Under the pieces are notes generated by a model that did not search any database, had not been told where the DNA came from, and worked only from the letters and a program-made list of their open reading frames with translations. Shown in pieces: positions 10,585 to 62,662 of a stretch of 64,000 bases of DNA. The stretch's first letter is position 1. Every line of letters begins with the position of its first letter. Made by a program: the position numbers and the translations under genes. The DNA comes from a virus: positions 19,428-83,427 of the IMG/VR virus record IMGVR_UViG_3300043420_001819. One strand, given 5' to 3'.

Positions 10585-11733
10585 TTATACTTCTAAATCT
10601 AAAATATGATTTTGTTCAGGTGTTTCATAGATATACGCTGCACCCGCATAAGCACCATTACTAGCGTCACCATCATTATCTTCTTCAGGTGAACCAATAA
10701 CAATTCTTCCTGAACCTATTGATATTGATGCACCATATATTAATGCACCATATCCAGACACTGAATTTAATGTTGTTAATAGATTTCCATCTAGGTCATA
10801 TACATAAACAGATGAAATTCCATCACCTAATAATAATCTACCATCACCAACAGCAACACTACCTGTGGATAGACTGGTGCTTGGTTTTTTTAGATTTCCA
10901 TTTAAATCAAATATTGTAAACGTATTAAAACCACAAACTACAATTCTTCCTTGTCCAACTACCACTTGGTTACCGAAGTTATTATTATTTTGAAGAATAT
11001 TATTATATTTTTTAGTGATTAAATTTCCATTTAAGTCATAAATATATATTGCTCCACAATTTGTATAACCTTCTGAAATATTGTCAGATTGATATGCACC
11101 AATAACAATCCTTCCTGAACCTACTGCCACTGAATTACCATAATAACTATTATATGCTCCATCATAAGCAGTTAATTTAGTGATTAGATTACCGTCTAAA
11201 TCATATACATAAGCAGAACCTGAATCAGTACCTTTATCATTATCATTCTGTGCCCCAATGACAATTCTACCGTTACCCACTGAAACTGAATAACCATAGT
11301 AATCAAAAACATCCCTATCATAAGCAGTTAATTTGGTTAATAAATTTCCATCTAGGTCATATACATAAACAGAACCTGCAGAATCATCATCTTGATATGA
11401 TCCAACAACTATTCTACCTGAACCAACTGCTACTGAAGCACCATAAAAATCATAATATGCTCCATCATACGGTATTAATTTAGCAATTAAATTTCCATCT
11501 AGGTCATATACATAAGCAGAACCTGACCAAAGTCCATCAGAATAGTCAAAGAATGCTCCAACCACAATTCTACCTGAACCAACTGCTATGGAAGAACCAT
11601 AAAAAAAATCACCTCCAGCATCATACGCTACAATTCTATTTTCATTACTCGGTAAAGTAGTCGCATCATAAGCAGTTTGACCTATAAATTGTTTATCACC
11701 TTCTATATAAGATTTCGGTGTTATTAATGCCAT
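10585..11733 (-). CDS. FG-GAP beta-propeller tail protein, copy 3
   Basis: A 382-residue protein made of seven repeats of about 40-55 residues, each with the pattern YGxSVAVGSGRIVIGA then GSAYVYDLDGNL. Repeats 5 and 6 are degenerate and short. Seven FG-GAP repeats correspond to one closed seven-bladed propeller. It is a paralogue of the proteins at 12352 and 13551, less regular than either. The acidic loops (DDD, DLDGN) may bind calcium. Position among fibre genes suggests host-surface binding, which is an inference. Confidence 0.82.
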   Translation of the reverse strand: MALITPKSYIEGDKQFIGQTAYDATTLPSNENRIVAYDAGGDFFYGSSIAVGSGRIVVGAFFDYSDGLWSGSAYVYDLDGNLIAKLIPYDGAYYDFYGASVAVGSGRIVVGSYQDDDSAGSVYVYDLDGNLLTKLTAYDRDVFDYYGYSVSVGNGRIVIGAQNDNDKGTDSGSAYVYDLDGNLITKLTAYDGAYNSYYGNSVAVGSGRIVIGAYQSDNISEGYTNCGAIYIYDLNGNLITKKYNNILQNNNNFGNQVVVGQGRIVVCGFNTFTIFDLNGNLKKPSTSLSTGSVAVGDGRLLLGDGISSVYVYDLDGNLLTTLNSVSGYGALIYGASISIGSGRIVIGSPEEDNDGDASNGAYAGAAYIYETPEQNHILDLEV

Positions 11734-11734
11734 A

Positions 11735-12331
11735 TTAAACTCCTACAGAATCAATTAAATCCCAAGTGGTATTATCCTCAAAATCAATTCCATTTAAAGC
11801 ACTTCTACTCTTCTGATACTGTCCAAGTAAAACACCATAAGCATCATCATAAGATGCTACATTTTCCATTACTTTTGTTACTAATTCTTCTATTGTAATA
11901 CCACGACCTTCTGCAATTTTAGTTAATAAAGGTGTATCAATTGTATTATCATTTGTAAAATCAATTGCTTCTTTTCTTTGTATTGCCCAAGATTTAACTT
12001 CGTCTTCCAAATAATCACTTTGAAGTTGTTTAACAGAACCTTCAAATTTATCTTTGATTTGTCTTGTTTTTACCTTCACCATATCTTTAAGAACTTTTAA
12101 AGCATCTTCATCAGAAGTAAATCTTTCTTTCACTTCAAAATTAGCAATGTAAGAACCATCAATATTATCTACCGTAGTAAAAGTCGCAATTTGTCTCCAA
12201 GTTACTGTCGGTCTATTCGATATTGTATCAACCTCAACCGCATCTTCAGGAATTTCTTGGTTTAGTCTATCATCAAATCTATAAGGAAAATTTAAAACAT
12301 TTCCCTCTGTATCTATTTGTGCATATGTCAT
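11735..12331 (-). CDS. Tail fibre assembly-like protein
   Basis: A 198-residue protein. The N-terminal 50 residues resemble tail-fibre-associated proteins (MTYAQIDTEGNVLNFPYRF), and the helical C-terminal part (about 85-185) looks like the DUF4376-type segment found in fibre assembly proteins. It lies between two FG-GAP propeller genes, which supports a chaperone or connector role for them. Medium certainty. Confidence 0.55.
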   Translation of the reverse strand: MTYAQIDTEGNVLNFPYRFDDRLNQEIPEDAVEVDTISNRPTVTWRQIATFTTVDNIDGSYIANFEVKERFTSDEDALKVLKDMVKVKTRQIKDKFEGSVKQLQSDYLEDEVKSWAIQRKEAIDFTNDNTIDTPLLTKIAEGRGITIEELVTKVMENVASYDDAYGVLLGQYQKSRSALNGIDFEDNTTWDLIDSVGV

Positions 12332-12351
12332 ATATTATCCTTTTTTATTAT

Positions 12352-13566
12352 TTATTTACAAATAATTCTTTCAAAATGTGTATCGTAAGTTTCAGGTAAT
12401 TCGTAGATGTATGCTGACCCTGAATTAGAACCTAAATCATCATCACTATATACCCCAATAACAATTCTACCTGAACCAACTGAAGCTGAACCACCATAAT
12501 AATCATTAAGTGCTCCATCATAAGCAGTTAGTTTAGTTATTAGATTTCCATCTAGGTCATAAACATATGTTGACCCTGAATTAGAACCTAAATCATCATC
12601 TTGATATGCTCCAATAACAATTCTGCCTGAACCTACTGATACTAAAAACCCATACCGATCATCATCTGCTCCATCAAAAGCAGTTAGTTTAGTGATTAAA
12701 TTACCATCTAAATCATAAACATAAGCAGAACCTGAATCTGTACCTTTATCATCATCACGCCATGCTCCAATAACAATTCTACCTGAACCAACTGCTACTG
12801 AAGCACCATAATAATCATCAACTGCTCCATCATAAGCAGTTAATTTGGTAATTAGATTGCCATCAAGGTCATATACATATGCTGACCCTGAATTAGAACC
12901 TAAATCATCATCTAGATATGACCCAATAACAATTCTACCTGACCCTACTGCTACTGAATAACCATAATAATCAGCAGATGCTCCATCAAAAGCAGTTAAT
13001 TTAGTTATTAGATTACCATCTAAGTCATAAACGTATGCTGAACCTGAATCAAAACCTTTATCGTCATCATAATATGATCCAATAACAATTCTACCTGAAC
13101 CCACTGCTACTGAACGACCATAATAATCAGAAGCTGCCCTATCATAAGCAGTTAATTTAGTTATTAGATTACCATCAAGGTCATAAACATATGCTGAACC
13201 TAAATAATTATCATCACGATATGCTCCAATTACAATTCTATTTGAACCCACTGCTACTGAACGACCATGATAATCATAACCAGCTCCATCATAAGCAGTT
13301 AGTTTAGTGATTAAATTACCATCAAGGTCATATACATATACTGAACCTTTAAAACCATCATCTCCGTATGCTCCAATAACAATTCTACCTGACCCTACTG
13401 CTACTGAATAACCATAATAATCAGAAGCAGCTCCATCATAAGCAGTTAATTTAGTCACACTTCCAAGAATATCCGTAACTTCATCAAAACTACTATGTAA
13501 CAACCCACCATCATTGATTATTTTAAAACCACTTGAATCTATAAATGCCATTAATGTCTCTCCCAA
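12352..13566 (-). CDS. FG-GAP beta-propeller tail protein, copy 2
   Basis: A 404-residue protein of exactly seven near-identical repeats (about 50 residues each: KLTAYDGA, YYGYSVAVGSGRIVIGA, DDD, GSAYVYDLDGNLIT) after a 35-residue N-terminal segment. The DNA repeats are about 150-160 bp and highly similar, so recombination between blades or between the three paralogues is possible. The protein overlaps copy 1 by 16 nt. Likely a virion adhesin; no enzyme motif is seen. Confidence 0.85.
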   Translation of the reverse strand: MGETLMAFIDSSGFKIINDGGLLHSSFDEVTDILGSVTKLTAYDGAASDYYGYSVAVGSGRIVIGAYGDDGFKGSVYVYDLDGNLITKLTAYDGAGYDYHGRSVAVGSNRIVIGAYRDDNYLGSAYVYDLDGNLITKLTAYDRAASDYYGRSVAVGSGRIVIGSYYDDDKGFDSGSAYVYDLDGNLITKLTAFDGASADYYGYSVAVGSGRIVIGSYLDDDLGSNSGSAYVYDLDGNLITKLTAYDGAVDDYYGASVAVGSGRIVIGAWRDDDKGTDSGSAYVYDLDGNLITKLTAFDGADDDRYGFLVSVGSGRIVIGAYQDDDLGSNSGSTYVYDLDGNLITKLTAYDGALNDYYGGSASVGSGRIVIGVYSDDDLGSNSGSAYIYELPETYDTHFERIICK

Positions 13567-14753
13567 TCTTGTAAATCATACGGTGTTATACATGCTGAAG
13601 GTGTTTCGTAGACGTATGCCGAACCTCTATTATTATCTTGATATGCTCCAATAACAATTCTACCTGAACCAACTGAAACTGAACGACCATATTGGTCATT
13701 AGCTGCTCCATCTGTACCAGCAGTTAATTTGGTTATTAAATTACCATCAAGGTCATAAACATATACTGAACCTGAATTATCACCATCATCATCATCTTGA
13801 ATTGCTCCAATAACTATTCTACCTGAACCCACTGAAACTGAATAACCATAATTATCACTAGCTGCCCCATCTGTACCAGCAGTTAGTTTAGTTATTAGAT
13901 TTCCATCTAGGTCATAAACATAAGCAGAACCTGAATCAGTATTACCATTGTCATCATCTCCATATGCTCCAATAACAATTCTACCTGAACCTACTGATAC
14001 TGAAGTACCATAAAAATCATAAGCTCCTCCATCATAGGCAGTTAGTTTAGTGATTAGATTTCCATCTAAGTCATAAACATAAGCAGAACCTGAAGCATCA
14101 CCATTATCACCATCATAAGATGACCCAATAACAATTCTACCTGAACCTACTGATACTGAAGTACCATAAGCATCATTTTCTGCTCCATCATAAGCAGTTA
14201 GTTTGGTTATTAAATTACCATCTAAATCATAAACATATGCTGAACCTTTAGCAATTTCATCACTATATGCTCCAATTATAATTCTACCTGACCCCACAGA
14301 AACTGAATTACCATAAGTATCATATTCTGCTGCATCAAAAGCAGTTAGTTTAGTTATTAGATTACCATCTAAATCATAAACATAAGCAGAACCTTGATAA
14401 GGAATTCCATCATCATCATAATATGCTCCAATAACTATTCTACCTGAACCAACTGATACTGAATTGCCATACCTATCAAGAGTGTCCCTATCATAAGCAG
14501 TTAGTTTAGTGATTAAATTACCATCCAAGTCATATACATATGCTGAACCTCTACTAATATCATCTGTATATGACCCAATAACAATTCTACCTGAACCCAC
14601 TGAACCTGAATTACCATATCTATCAGCATTTGCTCCATCATAAGCAGTTAGTTTATTCACATTACTAGGTAAAGTAGTTATCTCTCCACTTCCATACAAA
14701 TAAGGAATACCATCAATAGTAGTTACTGCTTTGCCTTTACTCATAAACGACAT
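13551..14753 (-). CDS. FG-GAP beta-propeller tail protein, copy 1
   Basis: A 400-residue protein with seven FG-GAP repeats after a 30-residue N-terminal segment, the most regular of the three paralogues in its VSVGSGRIVIGA strand. Two blades have an added GT in the connecting loop (KLTAGTDGAA). The end carries a unique tail after SAYVYETPSACIT. Expected fold is a seven-bladed propeller, as in integrin alpha heads. Role in host recognition is inferred from its place among tail fibre genes. Confidence 0.85.
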   Translation of the reverse strand: MSFMSKGKAVTTIDGIPYLYGSGEITTLPSNVNKLTAYDGANADRYGNSGSVGSGRIVIGSYTDDISRGSAYVYDLDGNLITKLTAYDRDTLDRYGNSVSVGSGRIVIGAYYDDDGIPYQGSAYVYDLDGNLITKLTAFDAAEYDTYGNSVSVGSGRIIIGAYSDEIAKGSAYVYDLDGNLITKLTAYDGAENDAYGTSVSVGSGRIVIGSSYDGDNGDASGSAYVYDLDGNLITKLTAYDGGAYDFYGTSVSVGSGRIVIGAYGDDDNGNTDSGSAYVYDLDGNLITKLTAGTDGAASDNYGYSVSVGSGRIVIGAIQDDDDGDNSGSVYVYDLDGNLITKLTAGTDGAANDQYGRSVSVGSGRIVIGAYQDNNRGSAYVYETPSACITPYDLQDWERH

Positions 14754-59573: not shown

Positions 59574-59763
59574 ATTTTATGTTATTTTTGGTATAATTAT
59601 ACCAAGTTTATGCTTTTCATTAGAAGAGTCAAAGACCTGTGGTGCTAACTATGCTTACGATTTTGATACACATAAGTGTGAAAAGATAAAGTATAGTGTA
59701 GATTATAGTTTGAGTTGGGTATGGGAAGACTTAAATGCCTCAAAATCAACACAAAAAATCTAA
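59566..59763 (+). CDS. Small secreted/periplasmic protein
   Basis: A 65-residue protein with an N-terminal signal-like segment (about 1-18, KFYVIFGIIIPSLCFS) and cysteines CGANY and CEK that could form a disulfide. A strong GGAGGG ribosome site precedes it. Probably periplasmic. Confidence 0.55.
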   Translation: MTKFYVIFGIIIPSLCFSLEESKTCGANYAYDFDTHKCEKIKYSVDYSLSWVWEDLNASKSTQKI

Positions 59764-59768
59764 GCATT

Positions 59769-59778
59769 ACGATAATAT
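59769..59778 (+). promoter_or_regulatory. ACGATWAT motif before the 102-residue gene
   Basis: ACGATAATAT about 57 nt before the gene at 59835, in its orientation; it merges with a TATAAT-like sequence. Confidence 0.35.
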
Positions 59779-59834
59779 AATACATAGTTATTATACTTAT
59801 AACTAAATATTATATAACAAAAGGAAAAAACAAC

Positions 59835-60143
59835 ATGAAATTTATAATTAACAAAATTATAGTAGTATCAATGGTATTAATTGCATTTATATCAAATATG
59901 TTTGCAGATTTTAATTCAACTGAAGCAGAAACACATTTTACGCAAATGGCACATGCAATTTCACAAGCTGACCATGATATGGCAGAAAGAATGTGTGGTG
60001 TATGTTTTACTAAAATTGAAAAATATAAAATAGAGATAAATGCTGAGCCTATTCCAAATGAAATGGAGATTAAAACTCTTGAGACATATGAGGGTAGACT
60101 CCAAAAGTTTTGTAATATGAAAAATCAACCAGTAGAAAAATAA
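59835..60143 (+). CDS. Periplasmic protein with signal peptide and CxxC
   Basis: A 102-residue protein with a signal peptide (about 1-24, hydrophobic VVSMVLIAFISNMFA ending in AD) and CGVC (54-57 region) plus a later Cys in KFCNMK. The mature part is helical. Redox-active CxxC is possible. It would act in the host periplasm. Function unknown. Confidence 0.65.
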   Translation: MKFIINKIIVVSMVLIAFISNMFADFNSTEAETHFTQMAHAISQADHDMAERMCGVCFTKIEKYKIEINAEPIPNEMEIKTLETYEGRLQKFCNMKNQPVEK

Positions 60144-60153
60144 GGAAAATACT

Positions 60154-60258
60154 ATGGCTAGAAACCCTAGAAAACATAAAAGAGTAAAATCTGAACCTTT
60201 CCAAGGTAAGAAAAGACTTAAAAGGTTAAATGCTACTAACTTGTTAATTAATAATTAA
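60154..60258 (+). CDS. Very small basic protein
   Basis: A 34-residue protein, about one third Lys and Arg (MARNPRKHKRVKSEPF, then GKKRLKRLN). A TAAGGAAAA ribosome site precedes it. It lies just before the structured RNA region. A nucleic-acid-binding role is possible but not shown. Confidence 0.5.
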   Translation: MARNPRKHKRVKSEPFQGKKRLKRLNATNLLINN

Positions 60259-60263
60259 TTTAC

Positions 60264-60310
60264 TTGACATTTATTATTAATTAAGCATATATTGTTAACT
60301 ATGGTATAAT
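60264..60310 (+). promoter_or_regulatory. Overlapping promoters of the structured RNA/tRNA region
   Basis: TTGACA (60264-60269), 18 nt, TATATT (60288-60293), and a separate extended -10 TGGTATAAT (60302-60310). Either would start a transcript that covers the structured region from about 60316. Confidence 0.65.
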
Positions 60311-60315
60311 ATATC

Positions 60316-61245
60316 TACAAAAGCATCGGGGATTCTCGATGGACGGGGTGGCCACTCGTTTCTGTATCTGTATTAGGCAGTGTAAATCTGAACAAAATGA
60401 TATTATATTCCACCATTTGTCGCACCGTAGGGAAGAGGTCATCCCGTGAGGCTCATAACCTCAAGATCGTAGGTTCGAATCCTACCGGAGCAACCAAAAT
60501 AAGATTGATACATACCATTCCAGGGCTTAGTTGGTGCCCGTACTTCAATAGAGGTAAAAATGGACTAACTAGGGAATGGTATCTACCAGTCTTCATATAA
60601 GACTGACCGCTCTCAACTGAATAACTAACTAATGAAGGTTGAGCCTTGTTGGATGGGTAGTTACATCGTGAACAAGCGTGTAGGTGGAAATCCTATCAGA
60701 TACGGTACGAAGAAAGAGATTGAGTTCTCTATACAAGCTGTATCAAATCGGTTGAAATATTACCGTTACCCAAAGTTTATCTTTGGTGTCTCCGCCGAAA
60801 GGTGAGAGGATTGGATTTTTAGTGAGTTCTTCCGTACATTGAATGAAGTCTCTAGTTAGTTATAGTATTTGCCAATACATCGTCATATAACTTTAACGAA
60901 CACTATGCAACGGTTAGTAGATGCGAGACTTCATTTAGTGTATATAATGAAGGGATTGAATAATTTTATACAAAGTATAAAATTGAAATAAATAGTATAT
61001 CGCTCGTACGGCCTCTCAACGATGCACACTGCTTCGGGCTTGTTAGGTTCTGAACAAAAACATTTGGTAGGTTATACCAGTGAACAAAAACAGAAACCTT
61101 GCGAGTAACATTCGTTAATGATAATGTAAAGTTCCTAGCCTCGAAGGTGCACCTCGACTAGGTCATTAACCGTTGGGTTAAATCGTACTACGGTATATAA
61201 AAGAACACGATGGCGTTCACTGAGTATTCGGGGGACGAGTCTCTG
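60316..61245 (+). ncRNA. Large structured RNA (GOLLD/ROOL-like candidate) containing a tRNA
   Basis: About 930 nt without a credible protein frame, densely folded. Helices I can read: CATCG/CGATG (60324-60341), ACAAAATG/CATTTGT before the tRNA, ATACCATTCC/GGAATGGTAT (60512-60521 with 60573-60582), TACTTC/GAGGTA with a U-G pair (60541-60556), CAGTCTT/AAGACTG (60587-60605), CTCAAC/GTTGAG (60612-60643), CTTGTT/AACAAG (60645-60676), CAAAG/CTTTG (60771-60785), a GAAA-capped hairpin at 60789-60807, AATGAAGTCTC/GAGACTTCATT (60842-60852 with 60925-60935) enclosing AGTTATA/TATAACT and GTATT/AATAC, CCTAG/CTAGG (61134-61162) and TTAACC/GGTTAA (61166-61181). G-U pairs fit the + strand only. A tRNA is embedded at 60421. 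Family assignment is inference. Confidence 0.7.
60421..60496 (+). tRNA. tRNA-Met (CAU), initiator type
   Basis: A 76-nt cloverleaf that numbers exactly like a standard tRNA: D-stem GGGA/TCCC, anticodon stem TGAGG/CCTCA with loop CTCATAA (anticodon CAU at 60454-60456), T-stem GTAGG/CCTAC with TTCGAAT, and an encoded CCA end. It has initiator features: a C1-A72 mismatch, a purine-pyrimidine 11-24 pair (G-C) and GC pairs next to the anticodon loop. One internal acceptor mismatch, A4-A69, is unusual. It lies inside the structured RNA region. Confidence 0.92.
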
Positions 61246-61262
61246 TATAATAAAGGATTTTT

Positions 61263-61679
61263 GTGGACGCACAACAACTTATAGATATTCACAAACAACC
61301 AAGTATCAATGAAGAGTACGTTGAAACTTGTGTAGATAATTGGGATAATATTAAAGTTGAACATAGACTTATAAATTCTAGCTTTTTATACAGTATTATA
61401 CCTGCTATTGAAAAGTATGATATGGTACAAAGAGTATGGATTGCTATGAATGGATTAGTTAGAATTAATCTAAAAGGTTTTGATGGCTATGATAGAGTAT
61501 CAGATATATCATTACATCCTAACAAAGGTTATTTCTCAATCATAAGAAGTCTTGATGAAGAAGTCAGAATATGTGAAAACGCTATTATAAGCATTATACT
61601 AGATGAGATTACACGAATTCAAAGCTATTTTCCTAGAAAGAAGTTATTTGAAGATTTTTATGATGAAGAGGAAGAGTAA
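61263..61679 (+). CDS. Hypothetical protein between two structured RNA regions
   Basis: A 138-residue acidic protein, starting at GTG 61263 with AAAGGA 5-6 nt before it. It is mixed alpha/beta (IKVEHRLINSSFLYSIIPAI, DRVSDISLHPNKGYFSIIRS) and ends in Asp/Glu (FYDEEEE). It shows no homing endonuclease motif such as LAGLIDADG, GIY-YIG or HNH. Being flanked by structured RNA on both sides may indicate that it acts on or with the RNA; no direct evidence. Confidence 0.65.
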   Translation: MDAQQLIDIHKQPSINEEYVETCVDNWDNIKVEHRLINSSFLYSIIPAIEKYDMVQRVWIAMNGLVRINLKGFDGYDRVSDISLHPNKGYFSIIRSLDEEVRICENAIISIILDEITRIQSYFPRKKLFEDFYDEEEE

Positions 61680-61688
61680 ATCTTATAA

Positions 61689-62112
61689 ATAAATCCAATA
61701 CTGTGAAGCGGGGTTACGATGCTTAGCGTTTAGTAAGCCCTCGATGGTTGAATACCGTTATCGTCTCGCTTCCACTTTATTAATACATCTCATTACAGTT
61801 CCATTCAGCATCCGAACTTTGACAAGGATGTTGATAGAGTTGTAATGTTCCGAAAAGTCAAAGATGGACAGCCTGTTGATGTTAAATCCAATTCCGTGAA
61901 GCAGGTGGTGTTCTCATTGCAAAACTCGAAGGATGACACATAATAAATTAAGGAATTGGTACTTTATCACGTAAGACTATACCATCGAAAGATAGGCTAT
62001 AGCTGTGATTGGTTTTTATCATTGATGTTGATTGTAGAATGAACTAGTAGCTACTAGTCTGGACAATTCGCCTATTAAGGAGAATCAGGTTCGAATCCTG
62101 ACAGTCATCACA
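61689..62112 (+). ncRNA. Second structured RNA with pseudoknot and T-arm-like end
   Basis: About 420 nt without a gene. Readable elements: a three-way junction closed by GTGAAGCG/CGCTTC-CAC (61703-61710 with 61767-61775) holding a GGG-TTAC/GTAAGCCC hairpin and a CGATGGT/ACC-ATCG hairpin; CATTACA/TGTAATG (61791-61847) with inner CAGCATCC/GGATGTTG; the 12-nt loop pairs downstream, CTTTGAC (61817-61823) with GTCAAAG (61857-61863), a 7-bp pseudoknot; CCAATTCC/GGAATTGG (61888-61959); a GAAA hairpin near 61983; a 16-nt palindrome at 62043-62058; and a T-arm TCAGG-TTCGAAT-CCTGA (62085-62101). TGTGAT (62004) pairs with ATCACA (62107-62112). Not a canonical tRNA or tmRNA. Confidence 0.65.
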
Positions 62113-62146
62113 AAACACAACTTAAATAAATTCTAAAAGGAATTAA

Positions 62147-62662
62147 ATGAAAAAGTTTTTAACACTTTGTTTGGCACTTGCTACTTCAACCTTGTTTGCA
62201 GGGGGATACACAGAACAAGAACCAGAAATCACTGGTAAAACTGGATTCTACATTGGTGGTTTTGGTCAACAAAATCTATATGGTGGAACTGCTGACAACT
62301 CTCAAGGGCTTGGACTAGTAGTAGGGTATGAGTATGGGCTTTTAGGACCAATTAATGTTGGTGCAGAGGGACGTGTAAGTAAAACTAACACGTACAATGA
62401 TAACATTGTTAGTTACACAGGATTAGTAAAAGCAGGACTTGAGATTGGAAACATTGAACCTTATGCATTAGGGGGATACCAGCTTTCTGATACTTCGTTT
62501 GGCTCTGATAATAATGCTTTTGTATACGGTGGTGGTATTTCTGCTGATGTAAACTGTAGAACAAAAGTATTTGCTGATTACCTAGTGAACGCTGATTTGA
62601 AAGAAGGTGGAGATAAAATCTCTCATGATACTGTAACAATCGGTATTAAATACCTCTTCTAA
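62147..62662 (+). CDS. Outer-membrane beta-barrel protein
   Basis: A 171-residue protein with a signal peptide (MKKFLTLCLALATSTLFA, cut before GGYTEQ) and a set of alternating amphipathic strands (GFYIGGFGQQNLYG, LGLVVGYEYGL, NVGAEGRVSK, YALGGYQLSD, FVYGGGISADV, KVFADYLVN, VTIGIKYLF). It ends in Phe after IKYL, the outer-membrane assembly signal. This looks like an eight-stranded barrel of the OmpA/OmpX class. Phage-encoded barrels can block receptors or alter the surface; the function here is inferred. A terminator follows. Confidence 0.85.
   Translation: MKKFLTLCLALATSTLFAGGYTEQEPEITGKTGFYIGGFGQQNLYGGTADNSQGLGLVVGYEYGLLGPINVGAEGRVSKTNTYNDNIVSYTGLVKAGLEIGNIEPYALGGYQLSDTSFGSDNNAFVYGGGISADVNCRTKVFADYLVNADLKEGGDKISHDTVTIGIKYLF

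Follow-up and report, generated by a model that had tools for sequence, protein, structure and literature searches.

A tRNA-carrying structured phage RNA with an abiF-RNA-like element and a possible role in antitoxin mimicry

Two groups of described RNAs bear on the locus analysed here. GOLLD and ROOL are large RNAs that have a homo-oligomeric cage as a characteristic feature; the abiF RNA (RF03085) is the RNA antitoxin of AbiF (Abi_2), a HEPN ribonuclease toxin from the lineage ancestral to Cas13. GOLLD is found close to tRNA islands and sometimes has tRNAs in its linker (PMC12286853). AbiF is toxic, and its own RNA neutralises it by binding it directly, whether supplied in cis or in trans; the hairpin stem is required for this binding and, in C. 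difficile, stability of the stem is required for neutralisation (PMC12373285). The AbiD/F proteins have been grouped with Cas13 (PMC12165695). Precedents for phage-borne RNA mimicry are provided by the ToxI mimic of phage PhiTE (PMC3475682) and the Racr RNAs (PMC10651486), in both of which a phage RNA copies a host defence RNA and binds the defence protein. We propose the same for a large phage RNA, termed RNA1, which differs from these precedents in its target (the HEPN protein AbiF) and in the RNA involved, and whose function is assigned by analogy.

The structured region and its genomic setting

The window, i.e. the whole 64-kb stretch of DNA that was analysed, spans positions 19428-83427 of a virus record 83,427 bases long. 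The phage encodes a T5-like terminase (with its closest phage matches only about 25% identical), a major capsid protein, a ribonucleotide reductase and a DNA ligase, for which a search for relatives found none. Three adjacent genes at window positions 10585-14753 code for long proteins made of the repeat VAVGSGRIVIGAYxDDDxGSAYVYDLDGNLITKLTAYDGA. RNA1 lies near the right end, flanked by a metallophosphoesterase region and the gene for a beta-barrel outer membrane protein; the ORF directly 3' to it has no match in Pfam or PHROG, and no relative of it was found (Table 1). The phage-borne outer membrane protein gene (62147-62662, PF13505) is immediately 3' of a second non-coding stretch, RNA2, and a porin gene likewise occurs 3' of the abiF-tRNA region in Synechococcus phage S-SRM01.

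Table 1. Features in and around RNA1 (window coordinates)
Feature	Position	Strand	Basis
Promoter-like site, TTGACA-18-TATATT	60264..60293	+	11/12 matches, best within a 2.8-kb stretch
RNA1, putative large structured non-coding RNA, ~0.95 kb	60300..61245	+	ORF gap, folding
5' hairpin CAUCGGG-GAUU-CUCGAUG	60324..60341	+	pair probability 0.99
Hairpin, 10-nt loop UGAACAAAAU	60379..60409	+	predicted fold
tRNA-Met(CAU), initiator-like, CCA encoded	60421..60496	+	61.8 bits
Long helix, perfect 10-bp core 60512-60521/60573-60582, nested hairpins	60501..60593	+	predicted fold, Watson-Crick helix count
8-bp helix around 5-bp hairpin	60699..60744	+	predicted fold
GNRA (GAAA) hairpin CUCCGCC-GAAA-GGUGAGAG	60790..60808	+	predicted fold
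19-pair helix, perfect 11-bp Watson-Crick core, closing a 72-nt domain	60834..60943	+	p 0.99
A+U-rich hairpin, 10 bp Watson-Crick	60961..60985	+	predicted fold, Watson-Crick helix count
3' domain, long-range helices 60995-61002/61191-61198 and 61006-61011/61183-61188	60995..61198	+	MFE
abiF-RNA-like element: core CUCUCAACGAUGCACA at 61013-61028, adjoining CGG/CUG, outer stem GCUCGUA/UUCGGGC	61000..61041	+	
14-pair helix; internal loop with two GAACAAAAACA copies around 8-pair hairpin	61038..61106	+	predicted fold
ORF, 138 aa, directly 3' of RNA1	61263..61679	+	
RNA2, second non-coding stretch	61690..62110	+	weaker folding signal, z -1.5
Degenerate tRNA-like 3' end of RNA2	62028..62109	+	predicted fold, sequence reading

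The original prediction held that 60316-61245 has no credible protein frame, and indeed ORFs of at least 70 aa are absent for longer at 60144-61262 than anywhere else in the window; this stretch has a GC content of 37.6% versus 32.8% for the window. The long complementary segments that it described were likewise borne out: the MFE of 60316-61245 is -270 kcal/mol versus -237 +/- 8.7 for shuffled sequences (z -3.8; 0/20 as good), and with the tRNA removed (60497-61245) z is -5.1 on the + strand and -3.7 on the - strand. Across the 83-kb record, the run 60151-61200 (+) shows the lowest mean composition-corrected folding residual among 1-kb runs of the + strand. Helices of at least 9 bp with only Watson-Crick pairs (within 160 nt) number three, at 60512/60582 (10 bp), 60842/60935 (11 bp) and 60962/60984 (10 bp), versus an average of 0.32 in shuffles (maximum 3 of 60), and a GNRA-capped hairpin, also predicted, is present in the form of the GAAA-capped one at 60790-60808. 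The region is confirmed as a real structured RNA with structure beyond chance. Two further signals are of lesser import: the repeated words GAACA/UGAACAA are borderline after correction, with a 7-mer repeated four times in 21 of 500 shuffles, and an 11-bp helix with two G-U pairs that joins the leader to the tRNA's own D arm (60343-60353/60437-60447) does not count as evidence of structure, since roughly 0.16 such helices are expected by chance between such segments.

The promoter expected just 5' of the region is represented by the near-consensus site at 60264-60293, from which RNA1 is expected to start near 60300; we infer that it is transcribed as one RNA. The + strand shows no terminator at 61245, and the transcript may extend into the ORF at 61263. 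Helices of this kind might be mimicked by the inverted repeats of a DNA-level element, such as an origin, packaging or recombination site, and the region is indeed about 4 kb or less from where the record ends, close to the terminal repeat expected for such phages. Yet the + strand folds better than the - strand (MFE of -218 versus -181 for 60497-61245), the promoter-like site is joined by a sense-strand tRNA and by the abiF core on that same strand, and in related phages the structured regions with tRNAs are at other genomic positions, all of which makes a DNA-level element most improbable.

The tRNA inside the 5' part of RNA1 had been predicted to be an initiator, a claim that holds in part. 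It reads CAU and has both the C1-A72 mismatch and the purine11-pyrimidine24 feature of initiators, but the three G-C pairs of the anticodon stem are present only in part (AGG/CCU) and there is an A4-A69 mismatch. By these features it appears to be initiator-like, not a textbook initiator. ARAGORN finds no second tRNA within RNA1.

RNA2 contains two imperfect copies of AAATCCAATnCnGTGAAGC (window 61688-61705 and 61880-61900). Its tRNA-like 3' end combines a 7-bp acceptor, a canonical T arm and a 16-nt palindrome in the D loop with an anticodon arm cut to 3 bp and 4 nt, leaving no anticodon loop; neither ARAGORN nor the tRNA model at E<=10 calls it a tRNA. This degenerate tRNA would suit a decaying tRNA array, where one intact tRNA, pseudo-tRNAs and structured spacers are transcribed only for tRNA delivery; spacers are frequent in phage tRNA loci, and no close homologue is conserved. 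We nevertheless find such an array improbable: the folding excess of RNA1 persists without its tRNA (z -5.1), its long Watson-Crick helices exceed those of shuffles, it has no second tRNA, and the exact abiF core discussed below would be unexpected in a spacer.

Comparison with known RNA classes and related phages

The region 59700-62400 was scanned with cmscan for all 4227 Rfam families, using both the gathering scores and E<=10 as thresholds. The tRNA was the sole family recovered at gathering scores and the sole meaningful match at E<=10. GOLLD, ROOL, OLE and HEARO, the models named for an Infernal check in the original prediction, gave no match at either threshold, and neither group I or II introns nor known ribozymes were detected at E<=10. 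As the tRNA was the only meaningful match, RNA1 is set apart from all of these, and by this measure it falls outside the known ornate classes. The likeness to GOLLD and ROOL that had been noted is thus limited to a large, structured, phage-borne and tRNA-associated RNA; it does not extend to a covariance-model match or to any common sequence that we could find.

A blastn search for homologues of the whole of RNA1 in phage and plasmid records matched the tRNA only. No close relative was found; the only relatives, with terminase homologues 70-74% identical, have tRNA loci whose sequence is unrelated to RNA1, and the terminase search found no relatives in cellular genomes. Two related phages with long records, G002 and G007, possess structured non-coding regions that carry tRNAs at other genomic positions; these measure about 0.8 kb (z -4.2) and 0.75 kb (z -1.6), respectively, and show no sequence similarity to RNA1. 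Apparent matches in G001 and G003-G005 were rejected because they fall inside the terminase gene, and abiF is absent from the distant relatives G001-G008.

These regions of 0.7-0.8 kb, unrelated in sequence, would be in keeping with a new class of ornate phage RNA resembling GOLLD and ROOL, i.e. an RNA-only assembly, perhaps enclosing or presenting the tRNA, in which the abiF core would be a small borrowing or would have no function. So would the size of about 0.9 kb, the phage setting, the attached Met tRNA and the elaborate fold, as well as the ability of GOLLD to carry tRNAs in its linker (PMC12286853). We regard this as unlikely, given the want of any similarity to GOLLD, ROOL, OLE or HEARO at E<=10, the failure to find a whole-RNA homologue, whereas GOLLD and ROOL are widespread, and the known ligand of the one conserved piece in RNA1, the abiF core.

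G002 and G007 have in common a hairpin with the 12-nt loop CCCUGCUUGCA(C/U), although the stem sequences differ, and a scan for the CCCUGCUUGCA loop yielded phage loci in which it is closed by yet other stems. This hairpin motif (L020:15430-15475 on the - strand, L022:14447-14472, L039, L041, L042, L043, L044, L049, L052 and L054) was not found in Rfam; it often comes just after a -10 box and precedes phage tRNAs, and several of the loci also hold abiF or abiF-like elements. It was rejected as a part of RNA1, being absent from the window; its stem-forming matches in genomes are few. The L043 locus has both this hairpin and an abiF RNA above the Rfam cut-off, and it was by comparison with L043 that the abiF core in the window was found.

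The abiF-like element and its counterparts in phages

The positions 61011-61025 agree with the RF03085 consensus at 15/15 sites (conserved core GCCUCUCAACGAUGC), and no other site in the 83-kb record matches abiF better. Over 22 nt (61010-61031) the window agrees base for base with an RNA in L134 that precedes a genuine Abi_2 gene (E 3e-56) by 43 nt, and it shares 24 nt with L061, L149 and L178. At least 120 viral DNA stretches contain the 16-mer CTCTCAACGATGCACA, for which the calculated chance expectation is about 3e-5 in 64 kb. Around the core, the outer stem forms 6/7 pairs in the canonical register, which at a fixed register happens by chance in about 1% of cases. A covariance model built without the window gives 61000-61041 a score of 43.4 bits (next best 9.1), of which only the stem part is independent because the 16-mer used to collect the loci came from the window itself. 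Across the viral set, covariation is seen in the outer stem, with 79% paired versus 67.5% in shuffled sets and 43 cells altered on both sides versus 14 (0/500 as high).

Relative to described abiF RNAs, e.g. RCd22 of C. difficile, the window element has the core, 6 of the 7 outer-stem pairs and the identity to the L134 RNA, but it lies in a phage that has no toxin gene, inside a 0.9-kb RNA with a tRNA, scores below the family threshold and has a weak stem. The full RF03085 model gives 17.0 bits, as a local match only, versus a cut-off of 37 bits; L134, in which a genuine Abi_2 gene is preceded by this 22-nt core, also falls below the cut-off. The hairpin is predicted at -4.1 kcal/mol versus -12 to -19 for other members; it is absent from the MFE structure, where the 3' domain competes with it, and a full fold constrained to contain it is 13 kcal/mol less stable. 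The homology of the core to abiF RNA is well supported. No Abi_2 gene (PF07751) was matched in the 83-kb record, and the lack of such a gene beside the element is what would be expected of a mimic. Plasmid matches to the window element in Aeromonas and Caballeronia were set aside as probably due to chance; no Abi gene is annotated alongside, and the Aeromonas record has no annotation at the match site and no Abi_2.

Orphan abiF RNAs are widespread in phages. Five isolated phages have abiF RNA and lack Abi_2; in isolates that infect Aeromonas (T7-like), Salicola, Mycobacterium and Synechococcus the RNA reaches the gathering score of the family, and their complete records are devoid of Abi_2. 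Abi_2 was found in only 1 of the 50 viral records tested, many of which are fragments. When the element of the Aeromonas phage was queried against plasmids, two of its three matches were immediately before an annotated Abi family gene (in pT75-VIM and pSWIT02), so that the motif occurs with its toxin on plasmids and alone in these phages. Among 94 distinct viral instances, 46 are followed by a tRNA starting 14-20 nt downstream, versus 2.8% for positions picked at random within the loci concerned, though many of these phages are related and the instances are not independent events; the tRNA is tRNA-Arg UCU in 37 of the 46. Another 20 viral instances are followed by a terminator-like T run.

One such phage RNA, the abiF sRNA of cyanophage S-CREM1, has been published, and a counter-defence role is not known to have been proposed for it. 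It and similar phage elements resemble the window element in being placed in the tRNA locus of a phage without Abi_2; they differ in that each is a 37-nt hairpin immediately 5' of the tRNA, while the window element is about 500 nt 3' of its tRNA in a larger RNA. Certain variants below the Rfam cut-off have the short loop swapped for an inserted hairpin (UAUGCUUAGCUCC ... GGAUGAUGCACAAA; L042:6030-6125 and L054:5087-5140), and the tRNA-like genes directly 3' of the abiF elements at L043:3801-3873, L054:5012-5085 and L128:3078-3149 are given two-base or otherwise odd anticodons by ARAGORN.

A proposed counter-defence role

A role in counter-defence is suggested by the abiF antitoxin core found at 61000-61041. 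Since AbiF RNA works in trans and phages copy defence RNAs, the simplest reading would be that the phage brings its own AbiF antitoxin in a tRNA-supplying locus. We infer a course of processing, AbiF binding and counter-defence as follows. RNA1 would be made as a single, highly structured transcript of about 0.95 kb; ordinary tRNA processing would cut the initiator-like tRNA out of its 5' part, and the rest of the body would present protein-binding hairpins. At least one of these, at 61000-61041, would mimic abiF RNA, the antitoxin that binds and silences AbiF. During infection RNA1 would bind the AbiF of the host and hold it inactive, standing in for the host antitoxin once host transcription has been shut down, and the phage tRNA would replenish a tRNA pool exposed to HEPN-type cleavage. 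AbiF mimicry accounts for only one of the many hairpins of RNA1. We see the chances as evenly balanced that RNA1 is a tRNA-carrying, multi-hairpin phage RNA through which host AbiF is neutralised by antitoxin mimicry. More tentatively, and with the balance tilting slightly against it, phages of many hosts might carry orphan abiF RNAs, often 5' of tRNA genes, as a counter-defence against AbiF, RNA1 being a giant composite of a tRNA, an abiF mimic and further hairpins.

If these proposals are true, a part of a large phage RNA would gain a testable function, and abiF motifs in phages that have no abiF gene would be accounted for. Phages would then disarm HEPN RNA-toxin systems by means of RNA mimics placed in their tRNA loci.
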